64,000 nucleotides of DNA from a virus. Positions within the stretch are counted from its first letter, which is position 1. Each line of letters opens with the position of its first letter. The position numbers and the translations under genes were made by a program. Positions 5,960-45,660 of the stretch are shown piece by piece. The notes below the pieces were generated by a model. It worked only from the letters and a program-made list of their open reading frames with translations, ran no database searches and was not told the DNA's origin. The stretch is from positions 1 through 64,000 of IMG/VR virus record IMGVR_UViG_3300006737_000020; one strand, given 5' to 3'.

Positions 5960-7306
5960 TTAAACTACTTTCTCGGTCATATTTATCATGTCATGCATAG
6001 ATTTACCTGCTTTAATTTTAACTGGAAATTTATTATTTGTCATAGTATTCTTTAATTTAATAATTAGGTCTCTTCCGTCTTTAATATTAAAATCAAATAG
6101 CAATGAATCATATGTATATAAAATTAGTTTAGTATCATATGGTCCTAACAATGCATTTACTTCATTCATTACAGCCATATTATATTCAGTTTCCATACTT
6201 TGTAAATAATAATTAAATAATTTACTTGGGTTCATATCAGACATTGCAGTTTTAAATAACTTTCTTTTTAATATAGCTGTTTCCATATATCCTTTAGATT
6301 GGAATTCTTTCCACAATTTATAAGTAAAATCTTTTACTTTACCAAAGAATGTAATTTTTGCAAAATCTTTATCAACACCTCCATATAATAATCGGAATGA
6401 TATTTGTTTACTTTGTTCATATTCTTCTTCTGATAATTTATCTTTTCCAAAATATTGTTTACCTAAATATGTATGAACATTTTCTTTTCCAAAATCATAA
6501 TCTATAATATCTCCAATTAATCGTAAATGGTAAGAGTCATAGTCTAACTCTAATAACATACCATATTCATGTCTTGATATAAATGATTTTCTAGATCCAT
6601 CTATTTTATTTATGGCAGCATAATTTACACCACCATGTTTATTTGAAGGACGTCCTGTGGTTGTATAAATATTATATTCTGTATATGCCGTTTTTCCAAC
6701 TAAATTATTTGTTTGGAATTTTTCTACAAATTTATCATAATTAACTTTTAATCCATTTCTTTCAATTGCATATAAGTTATCTATAAATAATTCGTTATAA
6801 TAATCAAATCCATCTGTACGCTTAAATGTAGAATATGATTGTATAAATTTATTTTTCATTGCAGAACATCTTTCATAATGTTTAACTATAGGAACATAAT
6901 CATGCACATTGGTTTCATTATAGTACCATTTATTATACCAATCATGAGCATTTGTATCACAATCTTCTAATTGTAACATTTGATTTGATTGAAAATATTC
7001 AACTAAATCTGCATCATAGGTCTTATGATGGTAGAAATTTACAAAGCGTTTCTTCCCCAAAACATATATATCAGCCTTACTTGTAAGCCTGTTTAGATGT
7101 TCGGATTCTAGGCATATACAATCCTTATGACGGAATGGTACAATATATTCTTTTTTAGTATCCATAACATATATATAAACAAAACTTATTTCATTATTCA
7201 CATAATGTTTATATAAATCAGAAAATACTGGTATCCACAAACTATTAGATGTCTGTAATGCTTGATGTAGCTCTTGTAACCTTTTTTTGTCTTCTACAAT
7301 TTTCAT
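5960..7306 (-). CDS. polA: Family A DNA polymerase with degenerate exonuclease region
   Basis: The C-terminal 300 of 448 residues form a Pol I-type polymerase core. TTTGRPSN (215-222) matches the T-x-TGR-S block. Motif A is LDYDSYHLR with Asp255. Motif B has Lys300, Phe304 and Tyr308 in the K-3-F-3-Y spacing, followed by GG. Motif C is YTYDSLLFD with Asp400. Both catalytic Asp residues are present. The residue equivalent to E. coli Glu710 is His260, and the HDE of motif C reads YDS. Residues about 20-110 look like the remains of a 3'-5' exonuclease fold, but the DxE metal-binding motif is absent. There is no 5' nuclease domain. T4 itself uses a family B polymerase, so this is a different replication solution in a T4-like phage. 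Whether a separate proofreading subunit exists cannot be seen here. Confidence 0.85.
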   Translation of the reverse strand: MKIVEDKKRLQELHQALQTSNSLWIPVFSDLYKHYVNNEISFVYIYVMDTKKEYIVPFRHKDCICLESEHLNRLTSKADIYVLGKKRFVNFYHHKTYDADLVEYFQSNQMLQLEDCDTNAHDWYNKWYYNETNVHDYVPIVKHYERCSAMKNKFIQSYSTFKRTDGFDYYNELFIDNLYAIERNGLKVNYDKFVEKFQTNNLVGKTAYTEYNIYTTTGRPSNKHGGVNYAAINKIDGSRKSFISRHEYGMLLELDYDSYHLRLIGDIIDYDFGKENVHTYLGKQYFGKDKLSEEEYEQSKQISFRLLYGGVDKDFAKITFFGKVKDFTYKLWKEFQSKGYMETAILKRKLFKTAMSDMNPSKLFNYYLQSMETEYNMAVMNEVNALLGPYDTKLILYTYDSLLFDFNIKDGRDLIIKLKNTMTNNKFPVKIKAGKSMHDMINMTEKVV

Positions 7307-16900: not shown

Positions 16901-17527
16901 TTGAACTTCCATATCTGCTAATCGTTCTTTTGCATATGATGTATTTAATGATTCAGCTAGCGTTGTACTATTTTTTTGTGTATATTTATATAACTGTTGA
17001 GCTTCATCTGCAATATCTGCAGTTAGTTGAGCTGATTCTTCTAATATACTAGCTTCAATATTATAACTCTTAAGAAGTGTATTGGCAGCATCAGCTCTTT
17101 GACCAGTTAAATTGAGTTTAACATTTTCTATAGTAGAAATTCTTTCTTGAACTGATTTTTGTTTAATATAATTCTGACCAGTTTGTTTTGCAAAGGCGGC
17201 AAATGCTTTTTGATTAGATGCTGCTAAGTTTCCTTTCTTTGCAACATTATCAAGAGATGTATCTAATCCATTGAATAAGCTATTTAATTGTTTTGATTTT
17301 TTTAGAAGATCATCTTCTTCTTTACCTATCTTTTTTATTCCAGTTTGTGTAATTCCTAATAACTTATTTAAATCTGCCTGGACCTTATTCTTTTGTTGTG
17401 CTGTCTTTAAAAATTCTTTACTGCCTGTAGCACCTTGCTTGTCTAACTGTTTTAATCGTTTGACTAAGGATAGTTCTTCTTTGATTAAGTCGACTTTTAA
17501 TTGCTGTTCTTTTGGTGTAAGGCTCAT
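13970..17527 (-). CDS. Tail tape measure protein
   Basis: The 1185-residue protein has the tape measure profile. Its N-terminal 300 residues are coiled-coil helices rich in Lys, Gln and Leu. Hydrophobic segments lie near 329-350, 672-730 and 962-995, and there are long Ala-rich stretches (about 930-970). The tail is Gly-rich. Such proteins set tail length and are released on DNA ejection; the hydrophobic segments may insert in the host membrane. It follows the sheath, tube and gp26-like genes, as expected, and overlaps the next gene by one base. An AAAGGA ribosome binding site precedes ATG. Several long plus-strand open frames across its Ala-rich part are shadows. Confidence 0.88.
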   Translation of the reverse strand: MSLTPKEQQLKVDLIKEELSLVKRLKQLDKQGATGSKEFLKTAQQKNKVQADLNKLLGITQTGIKKIGKEEDDLLKKSKQLNSLFNGLDTSLDNVAKKGNLAASNQKAFAAFAKQTGQNYIKQKSVQERISTIENVKLNLTGQRADAANTLLKSYNIEASILEESAQLTADIADEAQQLYKYTQKNSTTLAESLNTSYAKERLADMEVQFAANKNKLTGKSLLMAQQEINEARTKVGMLDEQSNALDYQISQRQAMHDALVGPFEAMKSTIESFPGGQFLSKAIGLDLFGDKLSEQLNLSLQTGLNEGAAAGVQRFKDLTASTKVFGMSLKSALLPLAAAGVLLGALMLFKQMSAETEELAANTGQSANQAEKMLQSARAMQASSANNLANTEEIVSAMTAMKEEFGSTANFSNETAMNVANMSAAFGIAVGDAAAVQRQFEAMGQTSQEAFNTQALAANLSEAAGVAPGKVMKDIAQNSKRAAKYMGGNAKALTKAAIEAARLGMELGDMVDIADGLLDIESSIEAEFEASVMLGKQINMDLARQLALQGDIEGATKAVLDQVGSIHDFNKLDVLQRKKLAQAAGMEVGQLQDALQKQEQMNSLTAEQKKRYDDASKALEGGTLTGEQLVKQQEAALAAKEMSAQFDKIKNTLMKALYPVIKAITQIFTNVLAPILDVVGAIFSGFMFALKPVLLVFQGIAKVVKFLSPALKVIAGIIGGIYAVKALIWAGDKANLAIQKTRQFFSSKEQMYSTATNLAKKMGLITDKQAVAQQKIASMYSKDYISDETMATTLKNKGLLAKMKENFQMGLITLKQKLGIGLSATEQGMLATKLGLKGTEAQIENQINASKNTGLMHTLKEIGYQAALAIKKGAVWTWEMMTNAEKRTAFLLTLKETVQQGLLAIAKGAVWLWQTMTATAATATTAATGAGAAASAAAIAPTAALATTHAAAATAAMTTSSAASFGVGIAPILAAVGIGVAALFALMAGASAMMSDGVIGPSSGGSGGYGSRVLFGPEGAISFNNKDTIVAGTDLFKANDAAFGPEGSMSMADSGPQEIELKDIQKDAARKLLKIQMIGSSPMGMLMGGLGAMGGALGSMFGGGEDGESEEGSPVFDETNATKLDALAAKLDAVITAIAGTGGSGGAQGPVQIVIGNKVIEEISGMMNVNKSYQIGAGNAGEES

Positions 17528-17541
17528 ACTTTAGAATCCTT

Positions 17542-17847
17542 TTATTTATGATCACGCCATTTGAATCCCAAATCTTTAAGATGTTTATAAAGGTTTTTTT
17601 TGCTTTTAAACTTACCTTTTCCATCTGAATCTTGGGTCATTAATTCGGCGCTAATTTCTAATTCACGCTCGAAGTCATCTATTGAGCGATTTAGACGCTT
17701 AATCGCATCTCGCATTCCAGGATCTTTTTCAAAGTCTCTTAACTTCTTTTTAAGCCCTCTTTGCATGAACTTTTTAAATAAAGGTGATAATAACCCTTCT
17801 TTTAAAGCATTTTCTAGCGATTGTTCTAATTTATTTGATTTTGCCAT
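17542..17847 (-). CDS. Small helical tail-assembly protein, unknown
   Basis: The 101-residue, strongly charged, all-helical protein is rich in Lys, Arg, Glu and Asp (LKKKLRDFEKDPGMRDAIKRL, broken here by a Gly). It has no membrane segment or recognised motif. It lies between the frameshift-linked tail chaperone-like genes and the tape measure gene, with a 14-base gap to the latter, so a role in tail assembly or tape measure handling is likely by position. A promoter-like motif lies 28 bases upstream. Confidence 0.7.
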   Translation of the reverse strand: MAKSNKLEQSLENALKEGLLSPLFKKFMQRGLKKKLRDFEKDPGMRDAIKRLNRSIDDFERELEISAELMTQDSDGKGKFKSKKNLYKHLKDLGFKWRDHK

Positions 17848-31373: not shown

Positions 31374-33056
31374 TTATATAGTATCCAATCCATCTACATG
31401 AATCTTACCATAGAATTCTGGTCTTACCATTTTCTTAGCATATCTAGTCATTACACCTTTTCTTGGAGTGAATGAAGCTGGATCATATACTAATGGAGTC
31501 ATGATAAGTGGAATGTATGGAGCATAAACTGCACCAGTTTCAAGGAATTGAGCTCCTCTATATCCCATAAGAATTGTATTCTCAGTCATGTATGGGTTTT
31601 TATAAACTTGGAATCTACTATTAATAGAACCAACTTTTTGTACACCCATTGCAAACTGCATTTTATCACCATCTGTATCAGCAGCATATCCAGGAATAGA
31701 TTCTAGGATAGTTGCAACAGTTGGAGAACATACTAGGAAGTTTGCACCACCTCTTAATGTTAACTGGTGAATTTTGTTACTTACTTTCTGGATTTTAGTT
31801 CCTAAAGTTTGGAACCAAGTACCTTGGTTGTAAGCTGCAGAATTTCCAGCTGTATTAGAGAATGTTGTCAACGTTGAATCATATTCAAAGCCTAATCTTG
31901 CTGACCAGAAGTCAGTAGTTTGAGCATTTTGCATTAACATATCTAATAATTCTAAATCAATTTCTTGCGAAACGTATTCAGATAACATAGAAGTTAATTC
32001 AGCCTCAGCATCAATTGAATGATAAGCATTCAAGTCTTGAGCAAATTCTGGAGTCCAGATTGCTTTTAACTTTCTTGTCTTAGCAACAATCGCCTCAGAT
32101 CTCATCTCTAGGTTGATTTCTGGAATAGCTAAAGCAGAATTAGATGCACCTGAATCTTGTGATTGATCTTCAAAGTCACCTCTTGAAGTATCACCAGGTT
32201 GCTTCTGGTAAGTAATTGTACCGTTCTCAACAGCTGCAGTTGCTACAGATGATTTAACTAAGAATGATACTTTTGGTGTAGCACTTGCTAGACCAGTATT
32301 TCCTGATACAGTAGTAAATTGAGGATAATAAGTCTCAATTCCTGAACCTGAAATTTGGAATGCTCTAACACCATTTGCATCAGCTAAATCAGAAGCTGCA
32401 AATGTAAAGTCTACAGTTGTTAATTGACCGATTCCAACAGATGCAGCAGCTAATGAAGCAGAAAATTCTGAATCATGATTAGTTCTTTGCTCAAAAGTTG
32501 TTTGAGTAAATGCTGAACCTGTTACAATGTTAGTACCAACAACACCAGTTGCAGTTACTTTGTTTCCTAATGATGTTTCGTTAACTGAATAACCAAATCT
32601 ACCTGCGCCATAAAGACCTTCAGTAGCTACGGTTGATCCTAACGTATCATCAGTTACACCGAATACAGAATCGTTTTGTGAATCTTTACCAGAGTTTGTA
32701 GTAAATCCTGGTTGGTTGGTCCCATACTTGAAATCAAGGAAGAATACTAGACCAGAAGGTAAGTTCATTGGTTGTACACTTACAAAATCTTTAGCAGCAA
32801 TCTCAGCAAAAATTCTTCTTACCAATGGTAATGCTACACCTGACCACTCTTCTGAGTTTGCAGATGTACCTGTAGAATTTGCTTCTGATACTAATTGTTT
32901 TGCTTGGTTTTCCAATAGAACTGCCATTCCTGACTTTTCATATTCTTTACCTAAACCTTCAAGAAGACCAGTTCTTTCCCATTTTCTAACCAAACCTGCT
33001 GTAGCAGCTTTTGATTTAGCAACGGAATCATTTGGCATTAATGAATTTATATCCAT
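31374..33056 (-). CDS. 23: Major capsid protein, gp23-like
   Basis: The 560-residue protein has the HK97-type T4 gp23 pattern. A helical N-terminal region of about 58 residues is followed by EEWSGVALPLVRRIFAEIAA and FVSVQPMNLPSGLVFFLDF. Later come EMRSEAIVAKTRKLKAIWTP, EFAQDLNAYHSIDAEAEL and a C-terminal YMTENTILMGYRGAQFLETG. T4 gp23 is trimmed after Glu65 by the prohead protease; likely equivalents here are LVSE|A at 58/59 or LLE|G at 33/34. The ribosome binding site AAAAGGAGA is strong. It follows the scaffold gene by 20 bases and is followed by a hairpin terminator, as suits a very abundant product. Confidence 0.94.
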   Translation of the reverse strand: MDINSLMPNDSVAKSKAATAGLVRKWERTGLLEGLGKEYEKSGMAVLLENQAKQLVSEANSTGTSANSEEWSGVALPLVRRIFAEIAAKDFVSVQPMNLPSGLVFFLDFKYGTNQPGFTTNSGKDSQNDSVFGVTDDTLGSTVATEGLYGAGRFGYSVNETSLGNKVTATGVVGTNIVTGSAFTQTTFEQRTNHDSEFSASLAAASVGIGQLTTVDFTFAASDLADANGVRAFQISGSGIETYYPQFTTVSGNTGLASATPKVSFLVKSSVATAAVENGTITYQKQPGDTSRGDFEDQSQDSGASNSALAIPEINLEMRSEAIVAKTRKLKAIWTPEFAQDLNAYHSIDAEAELTSMLSEYVSQEIDLELLDMLMQNAQTTDFWSARLGFEYDSTLTTFSNTAGNSAAYNQGTWFQTLGTKIQKVSNKIHQLTLRGGANFLVCSPTVATILESIPGYAADTDGDKMQFAMGVQKVGSINSRFQVYKNPYMTENTILMGYRGAQFLETGAVYAPYIPLIMTPLVYDPASFTPRKGVMTRYAKKMVRPEFYGKIHVDGLDTI

Positions 33057-33076: not shown

Positions 33077-34126
33077 TTAAAGTAATCCAGCTAACTTCTT
33101 AAATCTATTAGCAACATCATTTCCTTCTGAAAGGACTTTCTTTGATGGTCTTGTAGATCTCGAAGGCTTACTAGCATACGATTCTTTAATGGTTTTTACT
33201 TTTCTTTTACCACCCAATTTGAATGACTCAGTCAATGTAGCAAATACTAACTTAACTTCTCTCAATGTTTGAGCTCTGTCAAAGTTTTCAATTACTTTCA
33301 TTTTCTGACCTTCATTCAATGAATGATTTCTAAATAATTTGTTCGAGAATAATAGTTTAGCATTTAGCAAGTTAACTTCATTCAACTTAGACTTCATAAA
33401 TCTGATTACTTTGTAAGCTTCTTCAAGGTCTTTTGCTGCATCACCATCATCAACACCTGCTGTGTCGTTTTCTTCTACTGGTTCTGCTTCATCGCCTTCT
33501 TCTTCTCTCAAAGCATTAATGATTTCGTCAAGGTCAACTTCTTCTTCTTCAGTAACTTCTTCTTTGTCGTCACCTTCGTTTTCTTTAAGTTTTCCTTTGC
33601 CTGGGTCTTCTTCATCTGAGGATGATGCTTGTTTCATACTAGTTCCTTTACCAATACCAGTTGAACCAGACTGTTCTTCAACAGTTTCTTCTTCATCTTC
33701 ACCTTCTGTTACAGCTTCTTCATCTTCACCTTCAAGCTCTCGTAAGATTGCTTCTAGTTCTAAATCTTCTGCTTCAGAATGCATATCGGTTGGATCTTCG
33801 TCATCTTCGCGCATACCTTCATCAGTTTCTTCCCCTCTCATTCCTTCTTCTGCCATTTCGTCGTCAGCCATTTCTTCTTCCATTTCTGGAGCTGGTGCCT
33901 CAACTGGTGCTTCCATTTCTGGTTCAGCAGCAACTGGTTCATCCATTGGCATTTCGTCTTCCATAGCCATTTCATCTTCCATACCTTCTTCTTCAGAAAG
34001 TTTAGCAGACAACATGCTTTGAAGTCTTGGAGTAAAAGCTTCTTCTAATGCTATTTTAGCGTTTGCTAATGCTGTTTCTCGTACCGCTTTCGCGTCAGCA
34101 ATAGCTTCTTTCAATAAATTGTTCAT
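33077..34126 (-). CDS. 22: Prohead core scaffolding protein, gp22-like
   Basis: The 349-residue, extremely acidic protein lies directly upstream of the major capsid gene. Residues 1-45 are helical (LLKEAIADAKAVRETALANA). Residues 45-235 are almost entirely Glu, Asp, Met, Ala and Pro, with many E-rich runs. A C-terminal helical domain (about 235-349) includes KVIRFMKSKLNEVNLLNAKL and ends with ANRFKKLAGLL. This arrangement and position match T4-type scaffolds. Possible prohead protease sites include VLSE|G near the C-terminus, as expected for a core protein digested during maturation. The ribosome binding site AAAGGAGAG is strong, behind a 119-base leader with a hairpin. Confidence 0.8.
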   Translation of the reverse strand: MNNLLKEAIADAKAVRETALANAKIALEEAFTPRLQSMLSAKLSEEEGMEDEMAMEDEMPMDEPVAAEPEMEAPVEAPAPEMEEEMADDEMAEEGMRGEETDEGMREDDEDPTDMHSEAEDLELEAILRELEGEDEEAVTEGEDEEETVEEQSGSTGIGKGTSMKQASSSDEEDPGKGKLKENEGDDKEEVTEEEEVDLDEIINALREEEGDEAEPVEENDTAGVDDGDAAKDLEEAYKVIRFMKSKLNEVNLLNAKLLFSNKLFRNHSLNEGQKMKVIENFDRAQTLREVKLVFATLTESFKLGGKRKVKTIKESYASKPSRSTRPSKKVLSEGNDVANRFKKLAGLL

Positions 34127-35175: not shown

Positions 35176-35592
35176 TTATAGTCCCTTACCTTTTTGTCTT
35201 TCTAAATATTTTTGAAGTCCTTCTAATTGTTTTTCAGATCCCATAATATATCTAGATAATTGTTTTTCCATAGTTTCATATTCATAGTTACCTGATTCAT
35301 CACCTCTCATTTCAATATCTGTTCCTAAATCTTGATGAAAGTCTCTTACAGCATCCATTAACTTATTAAGTTGATCTGAATAATATTCAATATCTAATGG
35401 TTCTTGTTCTTGACCTGTTGCTCCTGCACCTGGTTCTAATGCTGCCTTTCTTTCTGCATCTGTTTTCATTTTAGGAAATGCTTGAACCATTGGCGCTTCA
35501 TTTAATAAAGAATCTTCCATTTTTAAATTATTTGCCTTTGCAAAATCTGCTCTTCCTTCAAATAATCTTTGATATTGTTTTTTCAAATTCAT
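35176..35592 (-). CDS. Head-cluster protein with LFE|G leader, candidate internal or core protein
   Basis: The 138-residue protein starts MNLKKQYQRLFEGRADFAKA. Residues 1-12 form a short basic amphipathic helix ending in LFE before G13, a prohead protease consensus; a second consensus, LNE|A, is at 32/33. The rest is Gln, Glu and Lys rich and helical (LNKLMDAVRDFHQDL). Almost the same leader begins the protein at 3979-4296. T4 internal proteins carry a similar short N-terminal targeting peptide that is cut by gp21. The protease gene lies one gene upstream. Core or packaged-protein function is inferred. Confidence 0.68.
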   Translation of the reverse strand: MNLKKQYQRLFEGRADFAKANNLKMEDSLLNEAPMVQAFPKMKTDAERKAALEPGAGATGQEQEPLDIEYYSDQLNKLMDAVRDFHQDLGTDIEMRGDESGNYEYETMEKQLSRYIMGSEKQLEGLQKYLERQKGKGL

Positions 35593-35593
35593 T

Positions 35594-35854
35594 TTAAAAC
35601 TCCACGCTATCTATATATAATGTAGGTCTTCCTCCAGTCATACCAAATTTTGATCCATCTTTTACACCTTCTAATCCTACATTCTTTTTACCTTCAAATG
35701 CCATTGGATCTTTTTTTGTAGTTACTGAATACTTAGATGCATTTTCTGCTCCTAAAACTTCAAGTCCACCATTCTTCTTTCCTTCGCCTGCTAATACATC
35801 AGCATTCTTTTGAGTGGCAGTTGGTCCATATTGTGATTGCATATCTTTTAACAT
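35594..35854 (-). CDS. Small Gly-rich protein with internal repeat
   Basis: The 86-residue protein has two related blocks, GKKNGGLEVLGAENASKY and GKKNVGLEGVKDGSKFG, each followed by a T-rich turn, and ends PTLYIDSVEF. No family is recognised. It lies between the prohead protease gene (1-base gap) and the leader-bearing 138-residue protein (1-base gap), so it belongs to the head operon. A minor capsid or core protein is possible. Confidence 0.62.
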   Translation of the reverse strand: MLKDMQSQYGPTATQKNADVLAGEGKKNGGLEVLGAENASKYSVTTKKDPMAFEGKKNVGLEGVKDGSKFGMTGGRPTLYIDSVEF

Positions 35855-35855
35855 A

Positions 35856-36461
35856 TTAGTACTCCTTAATTATATCAGTTATTAATTTATTTACATTTGC
35901 ATATTTATCAAATTGTTTTTTTGATTTTCCTTCATTTACTGGAGATAAAAATGCTCCATGAGTTGATGGATTTGAAACAAAGTCAAATGCAATTAGTTCA
36001 AAATCAGGCTGAACTTCTAATGTATCATCACCTTCTCTCATTACTTCTTTTACAGATCCCATACCTCTTGATGATATACCTAATCTAATACCTGATTTGA
36101 ATAGTTCTTTTAAAATGTTACCTGCAGGAGTACCTAATACTTCTACAGTTCCAACTAAATCATCACCTTGCCAATTCATACCTAAAACGTTATGACTTAC
36201 ATTATTTAAATTAACTACAGATGAATCTGGATGATCTAATTCTCCAAGAGCTCTCTTTTCTTTAATAAATCCTTCAGCATATTTATTTGCTTCTCTCATT
36301 AAAGTTTCTTTTGGATATATTCTTCCATTTTGATTCTTTGATTCAGCTCTTTGCAGAACTCCAGAAACAATTAATTTTCCGCCATTTTTAGATAGACTTT
36401 CATTAATTTGTTGAGGAGTTATCTCAAATGTTTGATAATTAACTAATAATTGCTTTGCCAT
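35856..36461 (-). CDS. 21: Prohead core protease, gp21-like
   Basis: The 201-residue protein matches T4-type prohead proteases, serine proteases of the herpesvirus assemblin-like fold. Features include GGKLIVSGVLQRAESKNQNG, RIYPKETL, GELDHPDS with His77, LGISSRGMG with Ser130/Ser131, and FDFVSNPSTHGAFL. The His in a D-H-P setting and the Ser in an S-R-G setting are the expected catalytic residues. The enzyme cuts capsid and core proteins after L/I-x-E during head maturation. A self-cleavage site INE|S is present at 21/22. The ribosome binding site AGGAGA is clear. It lies between portal-side genes and the scaffold, as in T4. Confidence 0.93.
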   Translation of the reverse strand: MAKQLLVNYQTFEITPQQINESLSKNGGKLIVSGVLQRAESKNQNGRIYPKETLMREANKYAEGFIKEKRALGELDHPDSSVVNLNNVSHNVLGMNWQGDDLVGTVEVLGTPAGNILKELFKSGIRLGISSRGMGSVKEVMREGDDTLEVQPDFELIAFDFVSNPSTHGAFLSPVNEGKSKKQFDKYANVNKLITDIIKEY

Positions 36462-36471
36462 TTTTGATCTC

Positions 36472-36996
36472 CTATTGTGATAATTCTTTTAATCGATTTG
36501 CAATCCTTGTCATTCTCTCATTTATCTTTGCAAATCTATTTCCGGTTGATTTCCAAAAATGATTTGAATTCACACCCATTTCTGTTTTTAACCTTATATT
36601 ATTATTTACGATCTTTTCCATTAACCCTAACATTTTATTAACTTCAGCTATTCCTCTATTAACTTTTTGTTGTGGTGTCGATGTTGGATCTTTTTTATAT
36701 TCTCTATATGATGATTCATTCATTAAACCTGAACTCATTGTCATCTTCATCATTTTTTTATATATTGAGTCTTTAACTAGTTCAAACTCTGTTGCAGTTG
36801 TTGCATTATCTTTTTGTTTCTTTTTACCTTTTTTATCATTTTTATGAAATGCATATGGAGTTTTTGGAGGACCTTCTCCGCCATCCATATTACCAGTTAC
36901 ATTTGCTTCTCCCAATTCATCCTCATTGTGTTGATATTGGATTTCATCTTCTTCTGCTTCCTTAAGGTATTTTTTAAATTTATCTAAATAATCCAT
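36472..36996 (-). CDS. Head-cluster protein with LKE|A leader, candidate core or internal protein
   Basis: The 174-residue protein starts MDYLDKFKKYLKEAEEDE, a short amphipathic helix ending in LKE before Ala14 (prohead protease consensus), with a second site LGE|A at 30/31. A disordered, Lys-rich linker follows (HKNDKKGKKKQKDN) and then a helical C-terminal domain (about 85-174) with NRGIAEVNKMLGLMEKIVNN. It is the gene before the protease gene with a 10-base gap. The leader and location suggest a prohead core or packaged protein; no enzymatic motif is visible. Confidence 0.66.
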   Translation of the reverse strand: MDYLDKFKKYLKEAEEDEIQYQHNEDELGEANVTGNMDGGEGPPKTPYAFHKNDKKGKKKQKDNATTATEFELVKDSIYKKMMKMTMSSGLMNESSYREYKKDPTSTPQQKVNRGIAEVNKMLGLMEKIVNNNIRLKTEMGVNSNHFWKSTGNRFAKINERMTRIANRLKELSQ

Positions 36997-36999
36997 ATC

Positions 37000-37314
37000 T
37001 TATTTCCTCAATAAATAAATTTCTGCAGAACTTGCTGCTGTTATATGTGATACTGTAAAGTTATATATTTCCTTTGTAGTTAATTTACTTGCTGCAATTG
37101 AACCTCCTCCTGGAAAATGTAATACTGCACTACCATGAGTTACAACCATAACTCCATTCCATCTTGCAGCACTTGAACCAGTATAATATGTTGCACCATC
37201 TGCAACTGTTGTTACTGCATGATAGCCGCCTAAATGTCCGCTTACATTATATAAACTTCCTGAATCTGGATAAGAATTAAACCAGGTTTCTCTTTGTGAT
37301 GGATTAGCGCTCAT
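37000..37314 (-). CDS. Small beta-rich virion protein
   Basis: The 104-residue protein is rich in Gly, Ser, Thr, Ala, Tyr and His (GHLGGYHAVTTVADGATYYT, then WNGVMVVTHGSAVLHFPGGG) and ends with a strand, AEIYLLRK. It looks like a small beta-sandwich. Its start overlaps the stop of the preceding gene by one base. Capsid decoration or a head-tail accessory role is possible; I recognise no family. Confidence 0.6.
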   Translation of the reverse strand: MSANPSQRETWFNSYPDSGSLYNVSGHLGGYHAVTTVADGATYYTGSSAARWNGVMVVTHGSAVLHFPGGGSIAASKLTTKEIYNFTVSHITAASSAEIYLLRK

Positions 37315-38186
37315 TATTTAGTCTCCACATTTTTAAGTTCTTTAATCAATTCATAATAACGTAACATTGTTAATACATCTTTATCTTTAACGGCTGATGA
37401 ATTTTTTAACTCTGTTAACATATTATTAACTTCATTCAATTTTATTTTAACTACTTTTGATCCTACTCTAGCAGATGCTCGTTTTAATTCTTTTTGGACA
37501 ACTGGAATTTCTTTTTGAATAAATTCTTTTAACGCAACAGTATTTGTTACATTATTAATATATTCTCTCAAAATATTTTTTTGTCGTTGATTAAGTCCAT
37601 TATATTTATCATTAAACTTATCAATTAACATTTTATAAGATAACAATCTAACATCCTTTGGTTGAACTGAATATGTTTCTTTTATAACATTTCCTTTCTT
37701 TACTTTAACTGGATTGTTGATTGTATTTCTTAATACATGTTCTACCAATGTAGCTTTTGATCTTACTATCTGAGCAGGATTGTCAACTTCTGCATATTCA
37801 AATAATTTATATGCCGCGGCCATTATATTATAATTTGATACTCTTGCTTTGAAAAAGTTATCTACTATAAATTGGTCATTGATTTCTTTTATTAAATTAT
37901 ATTTTTGTCTTCTCAATGCTGTTTGATTTAAAGACTTTTTTGCAGTTATACATGCTTGTAAAAATTTTTGAGCACTATTTTCTGTCTTAAACTCTTCTTC
38001 TTGAATAGTTCTATATAATTGTAATTCTTTTCCTAATTCAGTACCGGCCTTGAAATGCCTCTTGATAATCGGTAATGCTTTTGTCTTACGTCCTTGCATT
38101 GTATCTGCAGCGACTTGACGTACGAGCATCTCGAAAAGAATCCCGGTATTTTTATACTTTGAATGCTTTATTTTTTTCATTGACAT
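37314..38186 (-). CDS. Conserved-looking head-cluster helical protein, unknown
   Basis: The 290-residue basic, helical protein starts with SKYKNTGILFEMLVRQVAAD and contains TELGKELQLYRTIQEEEF, YNIMAAAYKLFEYAE and a long C-terminal helix rich in Lys and Glu. From memory this NTGILFE-LVRQ start is common to an uncharacterised protein of marine T4-like phages lying after the portal gene. The Lys-rich composition would suit a DNA- or core-binding protein. A promoter-like motif variant lies 31 bases upstream. Confidence 0.7.
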   Translation of the reverse strand: MSMKKIKHSKYKNTGILFEMLVRQVAADTMQGRKTKALPIIKRHFKAGTELGKELQLYRTIQEEEFKTENSAQKFLQACITAKKSLNQTALRRQKYNLIKEINDQFIVDNFFKARVSNYNIMAAAYKLFEYAEVDNPAQIVRSKATLVEHVLRNTINNPVKVKKGNVIKETYSVQPKDVRLLSYKMLIDKFNDKYNGLNQRQKNILREYINNVTNTVALKEFIQKEIPVVQKELKRASARVGSKVVKIKLNEVNNMLTELKNSSAVKDKDVLTMLRYYELIKELKNVETK

Positions 38187-38211
38187 ATCGTCCCGTTTAT
38201 TTGCTATCTAT

Positions 38212-38226
38212 TTTTAAATAAATATA
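38212..38226 (-). promoter_or_regulatory. Promoter-like motif variant after portal gene
   Basis: The coding strand reads TATATTTATTTAAAA, the same one-base variant as before the tail sheath gene, 31 bases before ATG at 38186. Confidence 0.45.
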
Positions 38227-38243
38227 GACTAAATTAACTTTCA

Positions 38244-40127
38244 CTACGCTTTTTCTTCTTGAATCAGTATATCTTCATCCAACATTGTACCTTTATCAGG
38301 ATCAGCTTTTTCAGTTGAAAGACTTTCTTGTAAAACTTTTGAAGATTTTGATTTATTTTGTAGCAAATCTGCAAATGCTTTAGCTTCTGTGCTTAGTGGT
38401 GAACCACCTCTATATTTATGTTGTAGTGGCGACTTATCTGTTGCAAATGCTTTATCTAATCCTTTTGCACCAACAGCGTCTCGTCCATAATCAGAATTAG
38501 CTCTTCCAAATGCACCAAATTTCTTTGGTCTTCCTGGTCCTGCTACTGGATCATTAGCTCCTTCATCTTGCTGACCTGGTATGTCTAGATTTCCCTGCAC
38601 ATGCATCGAAGCTATATCATGAGGTGTTCCAAACGATTGATTTGTCTTTTGAGGATCATTTCCTTCTGACTTAATTTGTTCTTTTCTGAATTCTTCTTTA
38701 AGATCTTCAATAACTTGATCTTGTTCTGTATTCCATTCATTTTGGCTCATACCAAATACATTTTCATATATGTATCTTTCTGAGAACATACCTGATTCTT
38801 TAAAATTAGATACTAATCCTAATTTTTCATTTAATAATTCTACCTTTTGTTTTTCATAAACAATTGATGGATTAGTTAAAGTTAATTCAAAATTGATAAG
38901 ATCGGCATCTGTATATCCTTGTGTATATAAATGTACAATTGCAATTTTAGTTAATTCAGATGTAAATATTTTTTGTATTCTTTCTATAGTTCTTGCAAAC
39001 CTAATATCCTCTGCTGCTAATGTTGCCTTTCCTTCTACACCTTCATCATATCCTAAAAATGCTTTTGGTATTCTTAATGCAGCATGCATTTTATTTCTTA
39101 AATAATCTATATCTTCAGTTTGTCCATCATTACTTGTACCAGGTAAAGATTCTATATTAGTTCCAGATTCACCACCTCTTACTGGTAAATAATAATCTTC
39201 TAACATGTTTTGTAGATTAAATTTAAGATTATAATCACCTGTTTGTTCATCCATATAAGGAACTTTTTTCATTTTGTTCATTATTTGTTGCATATGTGAA
39301 TCAACTTCATTTGGTGGTATATTACCTACATCAATTTTAAATATTCTTCTTTCTGGAGCTCTCATTATTCTATGTAACAACATTGCATCTTCCATAAGAG
39401 TTAATTGTTTGAATACTTTTCGTGCACCTTCTAACATTGATTTACCATACGGTAAAAAGTTTGTATCTGACAATAATCTAAAATGTGCTACCTCAAATGG
39501 ATCATATTCCATTTGTGAATTACCTCCTTGGCCAATATTACTCATTCCTTCATAATAAAATTTAACGGCATACGGATTTTTATCATCAAACTGCTCTTCA
39601 CGTCTCATTTCATATGCAGACATTGGAACTACATTTACAATACCAATTTCTTCATCAATATCTAAATGTAAATAAAAGTCACCATATTTACATGCATTTC
39701 TAATCCAAGGCCATAAGTTATATTCTACATTTAATACATCATAAAATAAATTTCTTAATATTTTTCGTATATTATCATCAGATGATTTAATTGTTAAAGT
39801 ATCACCATCAGCATCCTTCACTGTACTTTCATCTGCATATATATCTAATGCTGAAGATATAATTGGGTCCATATCCATACCTTCATAATCTGTATATAAT
39901 TCTACTCTATTTTGATGATAATTTGCTGTATTATTATATGTGCTCCATCCTGGGTTTTTTGTATGAATTCCTGAAAACCGATCAATGTATTTTGTCTGTC
40001 TCATGTTACCCATTGATTGTAACTTATTTGAATCTACAACTTGTAGTCTCTTTTTACCAATTCTACGAACTATTACATTCGTTGAAAAAAGTCTTCTAAG
40101 TCTAGATCTTAATGATTTGTTTGCCAT
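38244..40127 (-). CDS. 20: Portal protein, gp20-like
   Basis: The 627-residue protein has the T4-type portal pattern: YTDYEGMDMDPIISSALDIY near residue 80, LWPWIRNACKYGDFYLHLDI, FRLLSDTNFLPYGKSMLEGA, LMEDAMLLHRIMRAPERRIF and LRNKMHAALRIPKAFLGYDE. The C-terminal 120 residues are polar and probably disordered, ending near KVLQESLS. Portal subunits form the dodecameric ring at the DNA-entry vertex and bind the terminase. The gene follows the large terminase gene by 32 bases with a promoter-like motif in between. Its length is close to T4 gp20 (524) plus a C-terminal extension. Confidence 0.93.
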   Translation of the reverse strand: MANKSLRSRLRRLFSTNVIVRRIGKKRLQVVDSNKLQSMGNMRQTKYIDRFSGIHTKNPGWSTYNNTANYHQNRVELYTDYEGMDMDPIISSALDIYADESTVKDADGDTLTIKSSDDNIRKILRNLFYDVLNVEYNLWPWIRNACKYGDFYLHLDIDEEIGIVNVVPMSAYEMRREEQFDDKNPYAVKFYYEGMSNIGQGGNSQMEYDPFEVAHFRLLSDTNFLPYGKSMLEGARKVFKQLTLMEDAMLLHRIMRAPERRIFKIDVGNIPPNEVDSHMQQIMNKMKKVPYMDEQTGDYNLKFNLQNMLEDYYLPVRGGESGTNIESLPGTSNDGQTEDIDYLRNKMHAALRIPKAFLGYDEGVEGKATLAAEDIRFARTIERIQKIFTSELTKIAIVHLYTQGYTDADLINFELTLTNPSIVYEKQKVELLNEKLGLVSNFKESGMFSERYIYENVFGMSQNEWNTEQDQVIEDLKEEFRKEQIKSEGNDPQKTNQSFGTPHDIASMHVQGNLDIPGQQDEGANDPVAGPGRPKKFGAFGRANSDYGRDAVGAKGLDKAFATDKSPLQHKYRGGSPLSTEAKAFADLLQNKSKSSKVLQESLSTEKADPDKGTMLDEDILIQEEKA

Positions 40128-40137
40128 AATTTTCTAC

Positions 40138-40152
40138 TTTTATATAAATATG
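40138..40152 (-). promoter_or_regulatory. Promoter-like motif before portal gene
   Basis: The coding strand reads ATCATATTTATATAA, a core match, about 16 bases before ATG at 40127 and just after the terminase stop. Confidence 0.55.
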
Positions 40153-40158
40153 ATTGTA

Positions 40159-41742
40159 CTATAAAAGCCAGGTTAAATCGTCGTTGTCTTTATCTCCACT
40201 CTTCCAATCCCATCCTGAACCTTTTAAGTCTGTTTTTGTTGAATATACTCCTTCTGATGTCTTTCCTATACCGCCTAATGATTTTCTATTTAAATCCATA
40301 CCTTGTTGATGAAGTCTTAATGCTGTATCTCTCATCCATAATCCTGTTGCAAATGACATTACTAAATCATCATTATAGCCCCTTGCAGCTTCTGCTCTAT
40401 GCCCTAACCAAATAAATGTAAATAATTCATCTACTAATCTTTTTGAATGAACCAATGGTGTTTTATCTCTAAAATATGTTTCTAATTTAGATATTACTAA
40501 TGGACGAGTTCTTGATGTCATTGAAAATCCAGGAACTTTTTGTGATTTCTTTTTTAAATCATATCCTTTCTTCAAGTGTATTTCCTCATCTAAGTATCCA
40601 TCTTGTTTATAAGAATAGTATAGATTTTGGTATCCTTTGTCTAATGCTACCTGAATGGATGCCCATCCTATATTTGCATTTTCAATAACTAGTAATGCAT
40701 TATTATATTCTGTTGCAACTGATATTAACATATTACCATATTCGGTAGTTCCTATTTTACCTCTATATTCTGCAACTTGTTTACATTGTTCTGTATCAAA
40801 TACATGGAATGCAGAGTAATCAGTTGAATCTCCTCTTGCAACGTCAGCTACAACCATATATGATTTTGAATAATTTGGATATTCCCATATCCAATAATTT
40901 CCATCCATTCCTCGCTTTTCAATTGGATCTTTAACATATGTTTCCTGATACCATTGTAGTATTTCTCCATCTACTACTGTATGTCCAGATGATATAAAAT
41001 CACAGTCACATTCTTGAGCGGCCATTTTCTCACCTAACAATTCTGTTTGTTTATCTCGCCAAGCTTGATCTCTATCTGGATGTACTGTCCAATGTAATGA
41101 TATATTATTAAATTCTCCGCCTGCAGTTGCTTCTACCCATTGTTTATGAAACCAATTACCAACTCCATTAGGTGTAGATAATGCAATACAATCTCCACCA
41201 GTTGCTAATGTTTGTTGAGCGGCTGTCCATATATCATCAATTTTATCAATAAATGCTGCTTCATCAAATATCAATAATGATAATGCTTCAGATCTACCTG
41301 CATCACCTTTTGATGATATGGCCTTTATTTGCGACCCATTACTTAATCTTAATGAAAGTTTATTATCTTCAGCAACTGCCCCCTTTAACCATTTAGGTAA
41401 GTTTTCATGCATTACTCTAACCTTTGTTACAAGGTTCTTTGCAACATCTTGTTTAGTTGCAATTACTAGACAGTTAAAATCTGCCTTAAATAACATTTTC
41501 CATAATGCATATCCGGCTGTTAAAGTTGAAATTCCTAACTGTCTAGACTTAAGAATAATATTATATCTATTTTGAGATATCTGTGTTAATGATTCTTCTT
41601 GGAATGGATACAGATTAAAATATATTTTTCCTTGAGTAGGATGTTGAATTATACAGTATTTACGCATAAAGTGTATAGGATCTTGTACACACTTCTTATA
41701 TTCATCGCGTATGATTTCTTTTAATGTTTTCTTTACTGACAT
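40159..41742 (-). CDS. terL: Terminase large subunit, gp17-like
   Basis: The 527-residue protein has both terminase domains. The ATPase part shows LKSRQLGISTLTAG (66-73 as the Walker A position) and LLIFDEAAFID with Asp160-Glu161 (Walker B and catalytic Glu), followed by the coupling motif ALSTPNG. The nuclease part shows MVVADVARGDSTDYSAF (Asp300), LLVIENANIG (Glu354) and RGYNDDLVMSFA with the third acidic position. Terminase pumps DNA into the prohead through the portal. The Walker A segment has Ile where T4 gp17 has Lys (T4 SRQLGKTT, here SRQLGIST), a variation discussed under findings. I see no clear small terminase gene in the window. Confidence 0.95.
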   Translation of the reverse strand: MSVKKTLKEIIRDEYKKCVQDPIHFMRKYCIIQHPTQGKIYFNLYPFQEESLTQISQNRYNIILKSRQLGISTLTAGYALWKMLFKADFNCLVIATKQDVAKNLVTKVRVMHENLPKWLKGAVAEDNKLSLRLSNGSQIKAISSKGDAGRSEALSLLIFDEAAFIDKIDDIWTAAQQTLATGGDCIALSTPNGVGNWFHKQWVEATAGGEFNNISLHWTVHPDRDQAWRDKQTELLGEKMAAQECDCDFISSGHTVVDGEILQWYQETYVKDPIEKRGMDGNYWIWEYPNYSKSYMVVADVARGDSTDYSAFHVFDTEQCKQVAEYRGKIGTTEYGNMLISVATEYNNALLVIENANIGWASIQVALDKGYQNLYYSYKQDGYLDEEIHLKKGYDLKKKSQKVPGFSMTSRTRPLVISKLETYFRDKTPLVHSKRLVDELFTFIWLGHRAEAARGYNDDLVMSFATGLWMRDTALRLHQQGMDLNRKSLGGIGKTSEGVYSTKTDLKGSGWDWKSGDKDNDDLTWLL

Positions 41743-41747
41743 AGTAT

Positions 41748-41762
41748 TTTAATATAATAAAT
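41748..41762 (-). promoter_or_regulatory. Weak promoter-like motif variant before terminase gene
   Basis: The coding strand reads ATTTATTATATTAAA, sharing the right half of the motif, six bases before ATG at 41742. The helicase gene has the same variant in the same close position. Confidence 0.3.
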
Positions 41763-41791
41763 TATCTACAGAAAAACAAGAAAAAGAATGA

Positions 41792-42190
41792 TTATTTTTT
41801 CTTTGTCTTTTCAAGTGATCTACCACCAAAATAAGCACCAATTACTGTAATAAGTACTAATTGTAAAAGGTCCGTCCATTTATCTTCTACTACAAATTTA
41901 ATTGTTCCTGCATCAATAAAAATTAATAATACTGTACATACTACTAAAAATATTAATACTAATGGTCTTACATTTTTACTTAACCAAGAATCTGAATTCA
42001 TATCAGCTGACCATCTGTCTGTGATATTCTTTTCCATTGCCGCCTCATGGTTGGCAATTAATTCTTTCATTTTTCTTTTTGCTTCTAATTTTTCTTCTTT
42101 CGAGGTTGTTAGATTATCAAGTACACCACCAACTGATTCTACTAGTTCTCCGGCTCCACCTGAAAATAATTTTCCTAATCCAAATCCCAT
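41792..42190 (-). CDS. Holin-like membrane protein (GTA/3TM holin type)
   Basis: The 132-residue protein has a Gly-rich amphipathic N-terminus, a charged helix (SKEEKLEAKRKMKELIANHE), then two membrane segments at about 75-95 (RPLVLIFLVVCTVLLIFIDA) and 105-123 (WTDLLQLVLITVIGAYFGG), and a basic C-terminal tail (RSLEKTKKK). The SWLSKNVRP motif before the first membrane segment is typical of the GTA-type holin family. A holin would open the inner membrane for lysis. No endolysin gene is seen nearby, so the lysis role is inferred from family resemblance. Confidence 0.7.
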   Translation of the reverse strand: MGFGLGKLFSGGAGELVESVGGVLDNLTTSKEEKLEAKRKMKELIANHEAAMEKNITDRWSADMNSDSWLSKNVRPLVLIFLVVCTVLLIFIDAGTIKFVVEDKWTDLLQLVLITVIGAYFGGRSLEKTKKK

Positions 42191-42194
42191 AATG

Positions 42195-42842
42195 TTATTC
42201 TCCTTTTAATTCTGATAATATTTGTTCTTTATATTCTTTATATTTTTGCAATACAGTTTCTTTAAATTTTTCTTTACTCATTGCAGCATCAAACGTTTCA
42301 ATATCTCCATCAGCATTTTGTACTTGTCGAATAGCTTCTGTCATCATCTTTTCTAATCCTTTAACATCTTCATCAGCATCTTTAAAGAACGATTCAGCAT
42401 TTTTTAACATTCTATCACGTTTGTAATTTTCCCATGCATCTTTATCATTCCTCAGGTTAGTTTCAAATTTAACAACACAATCAAAACATTGTTTATGTGT
42501 TATCCAAAACTTTTCATTTAATCGTTTTTCTGATGTATGAGTATTCTTTCCACAGTTTGGACAAGTATCTGGCATTTGAAATTGTTTTTGTACTTGTCTT
42601 ACTAAATAACCATTTTCGGATTCACGTGATTTAAATCCATTATTTTGAGTAACTCGAGTTCTATTTCCATTTGGATCTGTTTCAATCCAAATCTTAGGTT
42701 TTCCGTCTTCAAATTGTTCAATAACATCTTCCTTTTTTATTTCAGATTTTGTATTTCCAAAATAATGAGACTTTCTTGTTTGTGATTTATGCGTTCCAGA
42801 TAACATATCTTGGATCGCCTTCACGTTCTTTAACTTACTCAT
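42195..42842 (-). CDS. Protein with a C4 zinc-ribbon-like motif, unknown
   Basis: The 215-residue protein has a polar N-terminal third (SGTHKSQTRKSHYFGNTKS), a middle with ETDPNGNRTRVTQNNGFKSR, then two Cys pairs about 24 residues apart (DTCPNCGKN and KQCFDCVVKFE) that would form a zinc ribbon. A helical, acidic C-terminal domain follows. It starts after the leader-bearing 103-residue gene and ends five bases before the holin-like gene. It could bind nucleic acid or join a packaging complex; I cannot assign a function. Confidence 0.68.
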   Translation of the reverse strand: MSKLKNVKAIQDMLSGTHKSQTRKSHYFGNTKSEIKKEDVIEQFEDGKPKIWIETDPNGNRTRVTQNNGFKSRESENGYLVRQVQKQFQMPDTCPNCGKNTHTSEKRLNEKFWITHKQCFDCVVKFETNLRNDKDAWENYKRDRMLKNAESFFKDADEDVKGLEKMMTEAIRQVQNADGDIETFDAAMSKEKFKETVLQKYKEYKEQILSELKGE

Positions 42843-42859
42843 ATAACCTTTTTTTTTAA

Positions 42860-43171
42860 TTAAACTTCTTGATCCCTACCAGATCTTTTTGCAGCTGCTT
42901 TCATCTTTACCAATTGACTTCTTAGTTGAGCCACTTTATTAATTGGTAAACCTACTTCATCTGCAAATCTTGCAATGGCTTGAGCTTTTTCAATATCTGT
43001 TTTCAACATATTTAAAAATCTAGATAATCCTTTTCTTTCTAAATATTGAAAAATTCTAGACACTTTTTGTCTTTCAGATCCACCTAAACCAGAACCATAC
43101 TTTGATGGAGCTTCTTTAAGTGTTCTACGAATTTCAGTTCTTATTGCTTTTCTTAAATTTTCTTCGTTCAT
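42860..43171 (-). CDS. Small helical protein with LKE|A leader, candidate packaged protein
   Basis: The 103-residue protein starts MNEENLRKAIRTEIRRTLKE followed by A21. The first 20 residues form a basic amphipathic helix ending in the prohead protease consensus LKE|A. The rest is helical and basic (SRIFQYLERKGLSRFLNML, then KAQAIARFADEVGLPINKVA) and would fit a small DNA-binding or core protein. It follows the mosaic nucleotidyltransferase gene and has its own promoter-like motif 20 bases upstream. Small terminase is an alternative for a small helical protein here, but nothing specific supports it. Confidence 0.66.
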   Translation of the reverse strand: MNEENLRKAIRTEIRRTLKEAPSKYGSGLGGSERQKVSRIFQYLERKGLSRFLNMLKTDIEKAQAIARFADEVGLPINKVAQLRSQLVKMKAAAKRSGRDQEV

Positions 43172-43200: not shown

Positions 43201-45660
43201 CTACTTATCGCCAAGTCCGCCTATTCCTAACAATTGATTGATAGGAGCAAATAAACCTGTTAATTTATATGTTTTTCCTTTATATACAAATACTATACCC
43301 TCTGTTGGCACTAATTTTTCAAATCCACCTAAATCTTCAATACGTTTTAATTCAAACTTTAATTTGTCAAGTGACGCTAAATCCTTAGATTTCTGTATGA
43401 CTTTGATTTTTGCAGCTATCCGCCTTTTCATATCCTTTATTGCATCTGTAGGAACAATTGATAAATAATCTGATATATTATGTAGTATTTCAACTCCTAA
43501 TTCTAAAAAGATTTTTTCAAAATTATATACATTTTGTTTGTTTTGTTGTTTAAAATTTTGTTTATCAAATTCTTTAGCTTTTTGTAATATTTCTGGATCA
43601 GGTATATTTTTTGAATTCATTCTAAATGATTTATCAAAATATGCCCATCTTTTTAATAATCCTAATTTTATATCATCTGTTGCATTAGGTATTATTTGAT
43701 TTATTCTTACTTCCCACCATTTTTGATGCCACATTTTTAATTCATCTGAATCCTTTAATTTGAATTGAGATTGTAAGGATGTTACTTGATCTATAAAATA
43801 TTTTTCCTTTTCTTCAAAATCAGGTAATTGTTTTGTAGTTAGAATTTTAGGTGGAATTATTTCAAATCGCTTTTGTATATTTGCATTAACATTGGCTATT
43901 GTTTTTTGTAATAATGGTGCATATTCAGGATATGAATCAACTTTAACTGCTAATTCTAAATCATATTCATCTACTCCATGAAATTGTATATATGCCTTTG
44001 GTCCATACATTATAACATTTTGAGTTCCTGGGTATATAATTTCCATGTTTAAAAATCTTGAACCGTTTTGAAATATTTCAAATAATTTATCTTTTGGTAC
44101 TCTTAATAATGCGCGTTCTAAATCTTCCATTGCAAATGTAAAAGCTTTTTCTATTTCACCTCTACCTGCAAATTTCATTCTAACAGCATCAATATCCATT
44201 GGATTCTTAATTGTAGTTTTGTTTCTTGCTGCTCCAAGTTTACCATCTTTAAAAGTAACTAATAAATTTTGTCCGTCTGTTTTTTCTTGAACTCCAGATT
44301 CAATATTTAATTTACCTTCTAATGATAATCGTATCATTTGTTTCATATCCGCAAATGTAATATCTCTATCATCAAATGGATGATTCATGTGTCCGGCTGC
44401 TCCACCCTCTGTTAATAACTGTAATGCAATTGATTCTCCTAATGATTTAGGTTTTGGTTCTTGTGGCATAATTCTAAATCTTGCTGCAGACCTACCATTA
44501 ATTAATAAGTCTCCTTTATCATTAAAATTAATTGTTTTCACTACTACCTTTTTATTTTTAAATCTACCCATCATAATTGTATCGCCGATATTGATTGGTA
44601 AATTAATATCTTCTTTTAATGTAGTTGGCACTAATATCTCTCCTTTACTTGATTCAATAGAATCTTCTGCTCCTAAAAAATCTAAAAATTTATATCCTAC
44701 AGATTGAGCAATATTTGAAATATAACTCTTCCATTTTGAATACCCAGGCCTTCCTTTGTAATCTTTAATATAATCTGTACCAGAAAACTCTCCTCCCTTG
44801 ACACCTGTTGGAAAGTATGATACTGTCAATGGTGGTCCATCTGGAAAATTTGTATTATGAACTTCAATAGGATTATCCTTTACAATATAATTTATAACTT
44901 CATATCCTAAACGTTTTGCCATGGCATCTGTTTTCTTTCTATATGTATTCTGATTTCCATAAAAGTATCTTGGTCCATCATCTACATCAGCTTTACCTTG
45001 GCCTGTAACATTACTTCCTTCTTTAACTATAAATGATTCCATTATTGCAGAAAACTTTTTTCTTAATAACTGATATATTTTTGGATCATACCAGCCCATT
45101 ATATTTTTAAATGTTTTCATGTCTGCGGTTGCCAATGCGGCTCTAATTGTTGTACCTGACATTTCACCAAATCCTGGTACTTTTAACTCTATATGCGGTG
45201 ATATAACAACGTATCCATGTTTATCATATCCTTTTAGATTTGATTTAGACTTTGCAAAATCCTGGAAATAACCAGGTGAACCATCTTTTTTTGTATATCT
45301 TAATCTTCCTGCATCTTTTTTTCCATATACAAATACCACTGCAGTAGTTTCAGGATTATATTTTTTTAATATATTTTCTGGAGCATAAACATTTTTTTCT
45401 TGAGAAACATTTGTTATTCCATGTTTTCTAATTACCTGAACCTTTTCTCGAAAGTTTAATGGAGATTTTGGCAATGCAACTTTATCTGATGTTGCAATAT
45501 ATGTATTTTGTTTTCCAAATTGTTTTGCTAACCAGTCATATACTTTTGCATGATGTTGACCCATTGGTTGAAATCTACCTGGATATATTGCCACTACGGT
45601 TTTAATCGGAGAATCCATTTCCGTTAATAAATTGTCTACTATTTGTTCACCTAAATTCAT
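43201..45660 (-). CDS. Mosaic protein: nucleotidyltransferase domain plus ligase-like domain joined by leader-like peptides
   Basis: The 819-residue protein appears to be several units in one. Residues 1-14 (MNLGEQIVDNLLTE) form a leader-like helix. Residues 20-200 are a cytidylyl/NMN-adenylyltransferase-like domain with YPGRFQPMGQHHAKVYDWL and the SGTTIRAAL motif. A second leader-like stretch (FSAIMESFIVKEG) precedes a domain at 216-345, then a small beta unit (355-400). LGESIALQLLTEGG (407-420) nearly repeats the N-terminal leader and ends in a prohead protease consensus, LTE|G. Residues 440-819 have the ligase/nucleotidyltransferase hallmark QEKTDGQN (Lys460) and a motif III-like FLNMEIIYP. 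The first His of the HxGH motif is replaced. A packaged polyprotein cut by the protease is my inference. Confidence 0.68.
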   Translation of the reverse strand: MNLGEQIVDNLLTEMDSPIKTVVAIYPGRFQPMGQHHAKVYDWLAKQFGKQNTYIATSDKVALPKSPLNFREKVQVIRKHGITNVSQEKNVYAPENILKKYNPETTAVVFVYGKKDAGRLRYTKKDGSPGYFQDFAKSKSNLKGYDKHGYVVISPHIELKVPGFGEMSGTTIRAALATADMKTFKNIMGWYDPKIYQLLRKKFSAIMESFIVKEGSNVTGQGKADVDDGPRYFYGNQNTYRKKTDAMAKRLGYEVINYIVKDNPIEVHNTNFPDGPPLTVSYFPTGVKGGEFSGTDYIKDYKGRPGYSKWKSYISNIAQSVGYKFLDFLGAEDSIESSKGEILVPTTLKEDINLPINIGDTIMMGRFKNKKVVVKTINFNDKGDLLINGRSAARFRIMPQEPKPKSLGESIALQLLTEGGAAGHMNHPFDDRDITFADMKQMIRLSLEGKLNIESGVQEKTDGQNLLVTFKDGKLGAARNKTTIKNPMDIDAVRMKFAGRGEIEKAFTFAMEDLERALLRVPKDKLFEIFQNGSRFLNMEIIYPGTQNVIMYGPKAYIQFHGVDEYDLELAVKVDSYPEYAPLLQKTIANVNANIQKRFEIIPPKILTTKQLPDFEEKEKYFIDQVTSLQSQFKLKDSDELKMWHQKWWEVRINQIIPNATDDIKLGLLKRWAYFDKSFRMNSKNIPDPEILQKAKEFDKQNFKQQNKQNVYNFEKIFLELGVEILHNISDYLSIVPTDAIKDMKRRIAAKIKVIQKSKDLASLDKLKFELKRIEDLGGFEKLVPTEGIVFVYKGKTYKLTGLFAPINQLLGIGGLGDK

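Follow-up and report, generated by a model that had tools for sequence, protein, structure and literature searches.

Bases 1-64000 of the 103,223-base viral record IMGVR_UViG_3300006737_000020, hereafter the window, encode several otherwise unrelated proteins that begin with a leader closed by L/I-x-E, and these leaders are probably capsid-targeting propeptides of the phage T4 type, with a gp21-like prohead protease of family S77 as the predicted processing enzyme. The initial annotation had proposed such a system from four N-terminal strings. T4-like leaders on unrelated proteins, the genes for some of which are remote from the head genes, do occur in phages with an S77 protease, and the idea is well supported in silico because the motif is enriched near N-termini, leaders are swapped between orthologues, a Glu is invariant at a domain boundary and T4 behaves as a positive control. 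The major capsid protein of this marine virus (31374-33056) shares 57-60% identity with those of Flavobacterium phage immuto and Microcystis phage Mel-JY01, 55% with that of LR756508 (an uncultured phage of 484 kb) and 38% with that of Rhodothermus phage RM378, and on these identities the virus is a far-T4 phage, a distant T4 relative. The minus strand encodes nearly all genes, including all the leader-bearing genes of the window described below.

Results

Genes were called in this analysis, and the record was compared with 14 contigs of relatives, mostly fragments; the pooled clade comprised 16 de-duplicated far-T4 sequences, and ten phages (1699 proteins) served as controls. The sequences compared are kin, and the counts are hence not independent. 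The test motif, [LI]xE[AGS] with the Glu at residues 6-25, occurs in 15 of the 98 proteins of the record, against 4.5 expected from the remainder of the same proteins; shuffled N-termini gave 3.6 +/- 1.9, and none of 500 shuffles reached 15. A stricter motif, L[KTNLF]E[AG], was found seven times (0.5 expected). The comparison with shuffled proteomes proposed in the initial annotation thus yielded the predicted enrichment. Most of the relatives' contigs, tested singly, were enriched like the record, and in the pooled clade the motif was present in 165 of 1689 proteins (75.6 expected; shuffles 63 +/- 8), a 2.2-fold excess; other S77-bearing T4-like phages had 52 against 34 expected. T4, run through the same script, returned the internal proteins IPI, IPII and IPIII (MKTYQEFIAE↓A twice and MKTFKEFTSTTTPVSTITE↓A, the arrow marking the bond that would be cut) together with gp23 and gp24. 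Helical, Glu-rich N-termini often yield L-x-E, and six Cellulophaga phages in which no S77 protease was detected do lie slightly above their shuffles (41 vs 29 +/- 5). These phages do not, however, exceed the rate of their own proteomes (39.5 expected), no enrichment was seen when D or K replaced the E of the motif or when the motif was reversed, and unrelated proteins share leaders; chance or composition is largely refuted by the enrichment and the leader-class counts, and we regard it as very improbable indeed. The leaders are real.

The best evidence for the leader system, as read from sequence, is an 819-residue protein (43201-45660) with a nicotinamide mononucleotide (NMN) adenylyltransferase-like (NMNAT) domain followed by a ligase-like domain. 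The N-terminal domain matches PHROG 395 (cytidyltransferase, 1.4e-7), and the immuto relative, in the same gene neighbourhood, is annotated as NMN adenylyltransferase; the second half carries the EKTDG motif of nucleotidyl-transferring ligases, read by eye. In all 29 homologues that start with the NMNAT domain, [LI]xE closes the leader (here 45619-45660, MNLGEQIVDNLLTE↓M) while its other residues vary, and the position after the Glu is usually filled by A or S and in some cases by M, N or Q. A leader-like segment between the domains (residues 407-418; 44407-44442; LGESIALQLLTE↓GGAAGHMNH) is a putative second protease site. All 19 aligned homologues keep its Glu, E418, the linker upstream differs between them, and the exchange of two unrelated C-terminal domains (GGAAGHMNH.. 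or AKANTHLTH..) falls exactly behind E418, at E↓G or E↓A; free-standing relatives of these domains start M↓GGVAGH or MSLLDE↓GKANTHLTH. Two packaged enzymes separated by a protease site would be expected to show just such an exchange point at an L-x-E shared with the leader. Structure predictions for this protein and for the product of gene 95988 of the record were too poor for use (mean predicted local distance difference test score, 38.0 and 37.5, respectively).

In place of the single helix type first proposed, several leader classes were found. The long helical class, M..(S/E)eLRkIIREEI..vL.E, includes the product of 42860-43171 in the window (leader 43112-43171; MNEENLRKAIRTEIRRTLKE↓A, continuing MNEENLRKAIRTEIRRTLKE↓APSK), those of genes 92599, 92904 and 95988 of the record and about 27 proteins within 140 kb of LR756508; in relatives, genes adjoining the NMNAT gene bear this 42860-type leader. 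In the clade, a hidden Markov model of the long leader had 48 matches at N-termini and 8 at internal sites; in the ten control phages it matched no N-terminus, and LR756508, where the S77 gene is ~3.5 kb from the match, was the only match to its consensus among 50,697 phage records. The short class of 9-12 residues, M(I)(K/R)L..LL.E↓, was counted with the pattern M..KL..LL.E[AGS], present at 17 N-termini against 0.24 expected from its internal frequency. Among the 1699 control proteins this 10-residue pattern matched only T4 gp24 (MAKINELLRE↓S), a gp21 substrate from which the protease removes a propeptide of 10-20 residues (PMC5694885, PMC9026906). The SND type, M(N/K)LKxxYxxLFxGKxxSNDxxLLxE↓, is carried by the products of 3979 and, diverged, 35176 in the window and by several proteins of relatives, and gave no match in a tblastn search of INPHARED; the KW type reads M..FD.HKW...LxE↓. 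By eye, the long, SND and KW classes are unlike MKTYQEFIAE, whereas the short class matches the gp24 propeptide. In immuto, MKKQILSEQF(K/R)RMQ(F/K)LAGIITE↓S precedes two unrelated proteins, and a leader of 24-25 residues ending L(L/I)(K/N)E↓G is found on two more.

The classes are exchanged between homologous proteins. Orthologues of the 35176 product carry at least five leader classes ending in L/I-x-E (SND, short, KW, MIKLSGIAQGIKKLHE↓A and others) on a homologous C-terminal part, and of two homologous LR756508 proteins (41% identity in the mature part) one has a short and the other a long leader. Since leaders are swapped on orthologues, the classes appear to do the same job and to be functionally equivalent.

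All four strings on which the initial annotation was built are present on the minus strand, although the cut sites assigned to some of them did not hold. In the core protein encoded at 35176-35592 (MNLKKQYQRLFE↓GRAD), LFE↓G at residue 12 (35557) is not conserved; across the SND-type family the Glu position is E, N, T, S, A or K, the terminal LLxE is retained, and relatives of the LFE↓G proteins indicate a leader of 25 residues. The cut is here more likely LLNE↓A, after residue 32 (leader 35497-35592; MNLKKQYQRLFEGRADFAKANNLKMEDSLLNE↓APM). The same applies to 3979-4296, in which the named string (MNLGKKYKQLFE↓GKTRSND) is preceded by 13 extra residues; by comparison with relatives, Met14 (4257) appears the better start, giving a leader at 4183-4257 (MNLGKKYKQLFEGKTRSNDATLIKE↓N) of the SND type seen in proteins of the relatives G002, G003, G005, G006 and G010, with LIKE↓N as the likely cut. 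The N-terminal segment of 36472-36996 (36958-36996; MDYLDKFKKYLKE↓A, continuing MDYLDKFKKYLKE↓AEED) is followed by a second L-x-E↓A at residue 30 (36907); its near-orthologues read LKE↓T, LKEEE, LAEEE or LEEDH, and the Ala after the cut is not conserved and the cut position itself not firmly so. The four strings also cover only part of the set, to which we add 43201-45660, four genes of the record beyond the window (92599, 92904, 95988 and 100716) and 17542-17847 (leader 17797-17847; MAKSNKLEQSLENALKE↓G). Small proteins resembling the latter product, matched by similarity in G001, G002, G005, G008 and G010, have a diverged leader that ends L/I-x-E↓[GSA]. Pfam and PHROGs searches with the small leader proteins mostly gave no match.

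A candidate enzymatic cargo was found in the relative G003, in which the protease and capsid genes are present: the leader MIRLRDIITE↓S stands ahead of an Fe/Mn superoxide dismutase (SOD; 6125-6805) with Pfam matches to its N and C domains (3.8e-18 and 1.1e-33) and PDB matches down to 7e-48, and residue 16 of the protein aligns with residue 3 of bacterial SODs. Eight close phage SODs have an extension of 10-11 residues ending L/I-x-E; at 56-61% identity these include MIKLANLLKE↓Q, MMIKLTSLLTE↓A, MIRLKNILTE↓A, MISLKSLLRE↓A and MIKLKNILTE↓E. A second SOD group has a different extension that ends [LI][SNT]E directly before the SOD start, and genes for S77 and gp23 are present on three of its contigs. 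Relatives of Fe/Mn SOD are encoded in at least 146 viral stretches, and in one group the SOD is fused to a domain with a HEWSHE (metallopeptidase-like) motif, with the junction [LI][SNT]E directly before the SOD start.

Several observations weigh against cleavable capsid-targeting propeptides. The simple motif is little or not enriched in the S77-bearing phages HTVC008M, RM378, Mel-JY01 and G002, and phi14:2, in which S77 was not detected, has 10 occurrences (6.4 expected). Among the marine contigs, a leader-bearing SOD and an S77 gene are visible together only in G003, the others being fragments, and the class patterns were defined after the data had been seen, the controls guarding against circularity. 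The N-terminus of the terminase TerL (40159-41742; LKEIIRDEYKKC) fits the long-leader model and is not a leader but a false positive, and the similar N-terminal helix of the 77027 family of tail-region proteins is considered another. Similar helices on tail-region genes (the 77027 family and 17542) and the scattered positions of the cargo genes would suit some other purpose, such as attachment to tail, baseplate or membrane, regulated degradation or processing by a host protease; this is decidedly unlikely, given that the long leader is absent from the control phages and confined, among the 50,697 phage records, to one of the same capsid clade, and that the short pattern matches T4 gp24. In the long class, the residue after the Glu (P1') is unrestricted and mostly other than the A, G or S given in the initial annotation, the published T4 motif being L/I-X-E (PMC9026906), and many long-class proteins may therefore be poor substrates. 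Together with the loss of A/G/S in the near-orthologues of 36472, this speaks for targeting with little or no cleavage, in which the helices would dock proteins on the core or another part of the virion and the terminal L-x-E would merely be part of the helix. That alternative is unlikely, since the Glu is invariant at the internal domain junction despite the diverging linker upstream and the SOD and NMNAT leaders keep it while their remainder varies. Cleaved capsid-targeting propeptides thus remain our preferred reading.

The gp21-like protease recognized in the initial annotation (35856-36461) was confirmed by matches to Peptidase_S77 (Pfam PF03420, 8.3e-26) and PHROG 207 (7e-54). An S77 protease is encoded in all 14 far-T4 contigs tested, and leaders and protease co-occur in the far-T4 sequences examined. 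The gene order is T4-like, with terminase (40159), portal (38244), protease (35856), a scaffold-like protein (33077) and the capsid protein (31374), the last three on the minus strand. The protease has its own N-terminal INE↓S at residue 21, present in 42 of 47 matched proteins. The scaffold-like core protein (33077-34126), assigned to the gp22 position by location and composition with no family match, has near its N-terminus LLKE↓A (57 of 77 relatives) and ALEE↓A (as LEE↓A in 65 of 77), and the major capsid protein gp23 (Pfam Gp23, 7.5e-77) has GLLE↓G at residue 33 (72 of 73) and VSE↓A at residue 58 (as [VI]xE↓[AV] in 71). Conserved L/V/I-x-E sites in the capsid protein, scaffold and protease themselves fit the propeptide reading. 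The scaffold C-termini NRFKKLAGLL and ARWKKLANLK resemble the end of the immuto leader RMQKLAGIITE↓S, and the leader may mimic a docking segment of the scaffold.

Other proteins were noted in passing. At ~177.7-183.6 kb in LR756508.1, leader-bearing paralogues lie clustered; they contain YRG/YHxT-like strings, recognized only by eye, match nothing in Pfam or PDB, and are possibly ADP-ribosyltransferases like T4 Alt. In G001, a polynucleotide-kinase-like protein (17046-17801; PHROG 415) has the leader MIRLADLLNE↓A. A basic C-terminal module (AEYQGRKVKLGKP...; PHROG 7595, HVA1-like) in the product of record positions 101258-101698 occurs on many unrelated upstream sequences, and the residue preceding it is nearly always Glu; this E↓AEYQGR module was set aside as a leader case because it is also present in pelagiphages and roseophages of other types.

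Discussion

From these results we infer a route of docking, cleavage, packaging and ejection. An N-terminal segment of 9-32 residues, mostly basic and amphipathic, would dock an unrelated protein on the prohead core, around which the shell forms; the S77 protease would then cut after the Glu of the terminal L/I-x-E and the leader would leave, so that the mature protein is released inside the head, stays with the DNA and is presumably ejected with it. The labels would be interchangeable, and enzymes and small unknown proteins as well as core proteins would bear them; in the NMNAT-ligase a second, internal label-plus-site would split the two-enzyme precursor in the prohead. A wider proposal, the case for which stands about even in our estimate, is that far-T4 phages have a modular head-delivery system routing SOD and a nicotinamide adenine dinucleotide (NAD)-synthesis/ligase precursor into the capsid, with the protease as a polyprotein processor, by which oxidative-stress, NAD and nucleic-acid repair functions would be injected at infection.

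The T4 capsid-targeting sequence (CTS) of Mullaney and Black is sufficient for head entry, and gp21 cuts after L/I-X-E (PMC9026906, PMC3012670); the internal proteins of T-even phages are diverse defence proteins with the CTS as their sole common feature (PMC3012670), and this kind of system is therefore already known. Like T4 with IPI, IPII, IPIII and Alt, the far-T4 phages encode an S77 protease, and diverse proteins, here predicted to be packaged, share N-terminal propeptides of 10-20 residues with a putative L/I-X-E cut; the T4 gp24 propeptide fits the short far-T4 class. Unlike T4, with its mainly MKTYQEF-type leaders, the far-T4 phages have several unrelated classes swapped between orthologues, a predicted cargo of NMNAT-ligase, SOD and many unknown proteins, and an internal leader-like site in a two-enzyme protein. 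In phages phiKZ and SPN3US, an S77-related protease likewise cuts after Glu in many head proteins (PMC5694885, PMC10052503), but the motif is A-X-E in SPN3US and S-X-E in phiKZ, and several SPN3US propeptides exceed 100 residues. For head-packaged ADP-ribosyltransferases and polyvalent proteins, too, enzymes are predicted to enter the head and to be injected (PMC9503650); the argument there was built on fused domains (MuF, portal) and on T4 Alt, whereas ours derives from a putatively removable leader. The far-T4 phages were described as a clade of uncultured T4 relatives, the same as here by capsid protein (PMC4360716), in a paper whose text makes no mention of internal proteins, proteases or leaders, and in the open-access literature we found the T4 and giant-phage systems, with the leaders of the far-T4 clade undescribed. 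What appears new is the variety of leader classes, their clade-wide spread, the predicted enzymatic cargo and the putative two-site enzyme precursor.

If the proposed mechanism is correct, a short sequence rule would predict injected virion cargo among the unknown proteins of abundant marine phages, cargo that is otherwise learned only through proteomics of cultured phages. It would name SOD and NMNAT-ligase as candidates and point to labels that, like the T4 CTS, might be used to bring foreign proteins into other capsids. By this route, enzymes could enter the host in finished form, in relatives an antioxidant enzyme among them.

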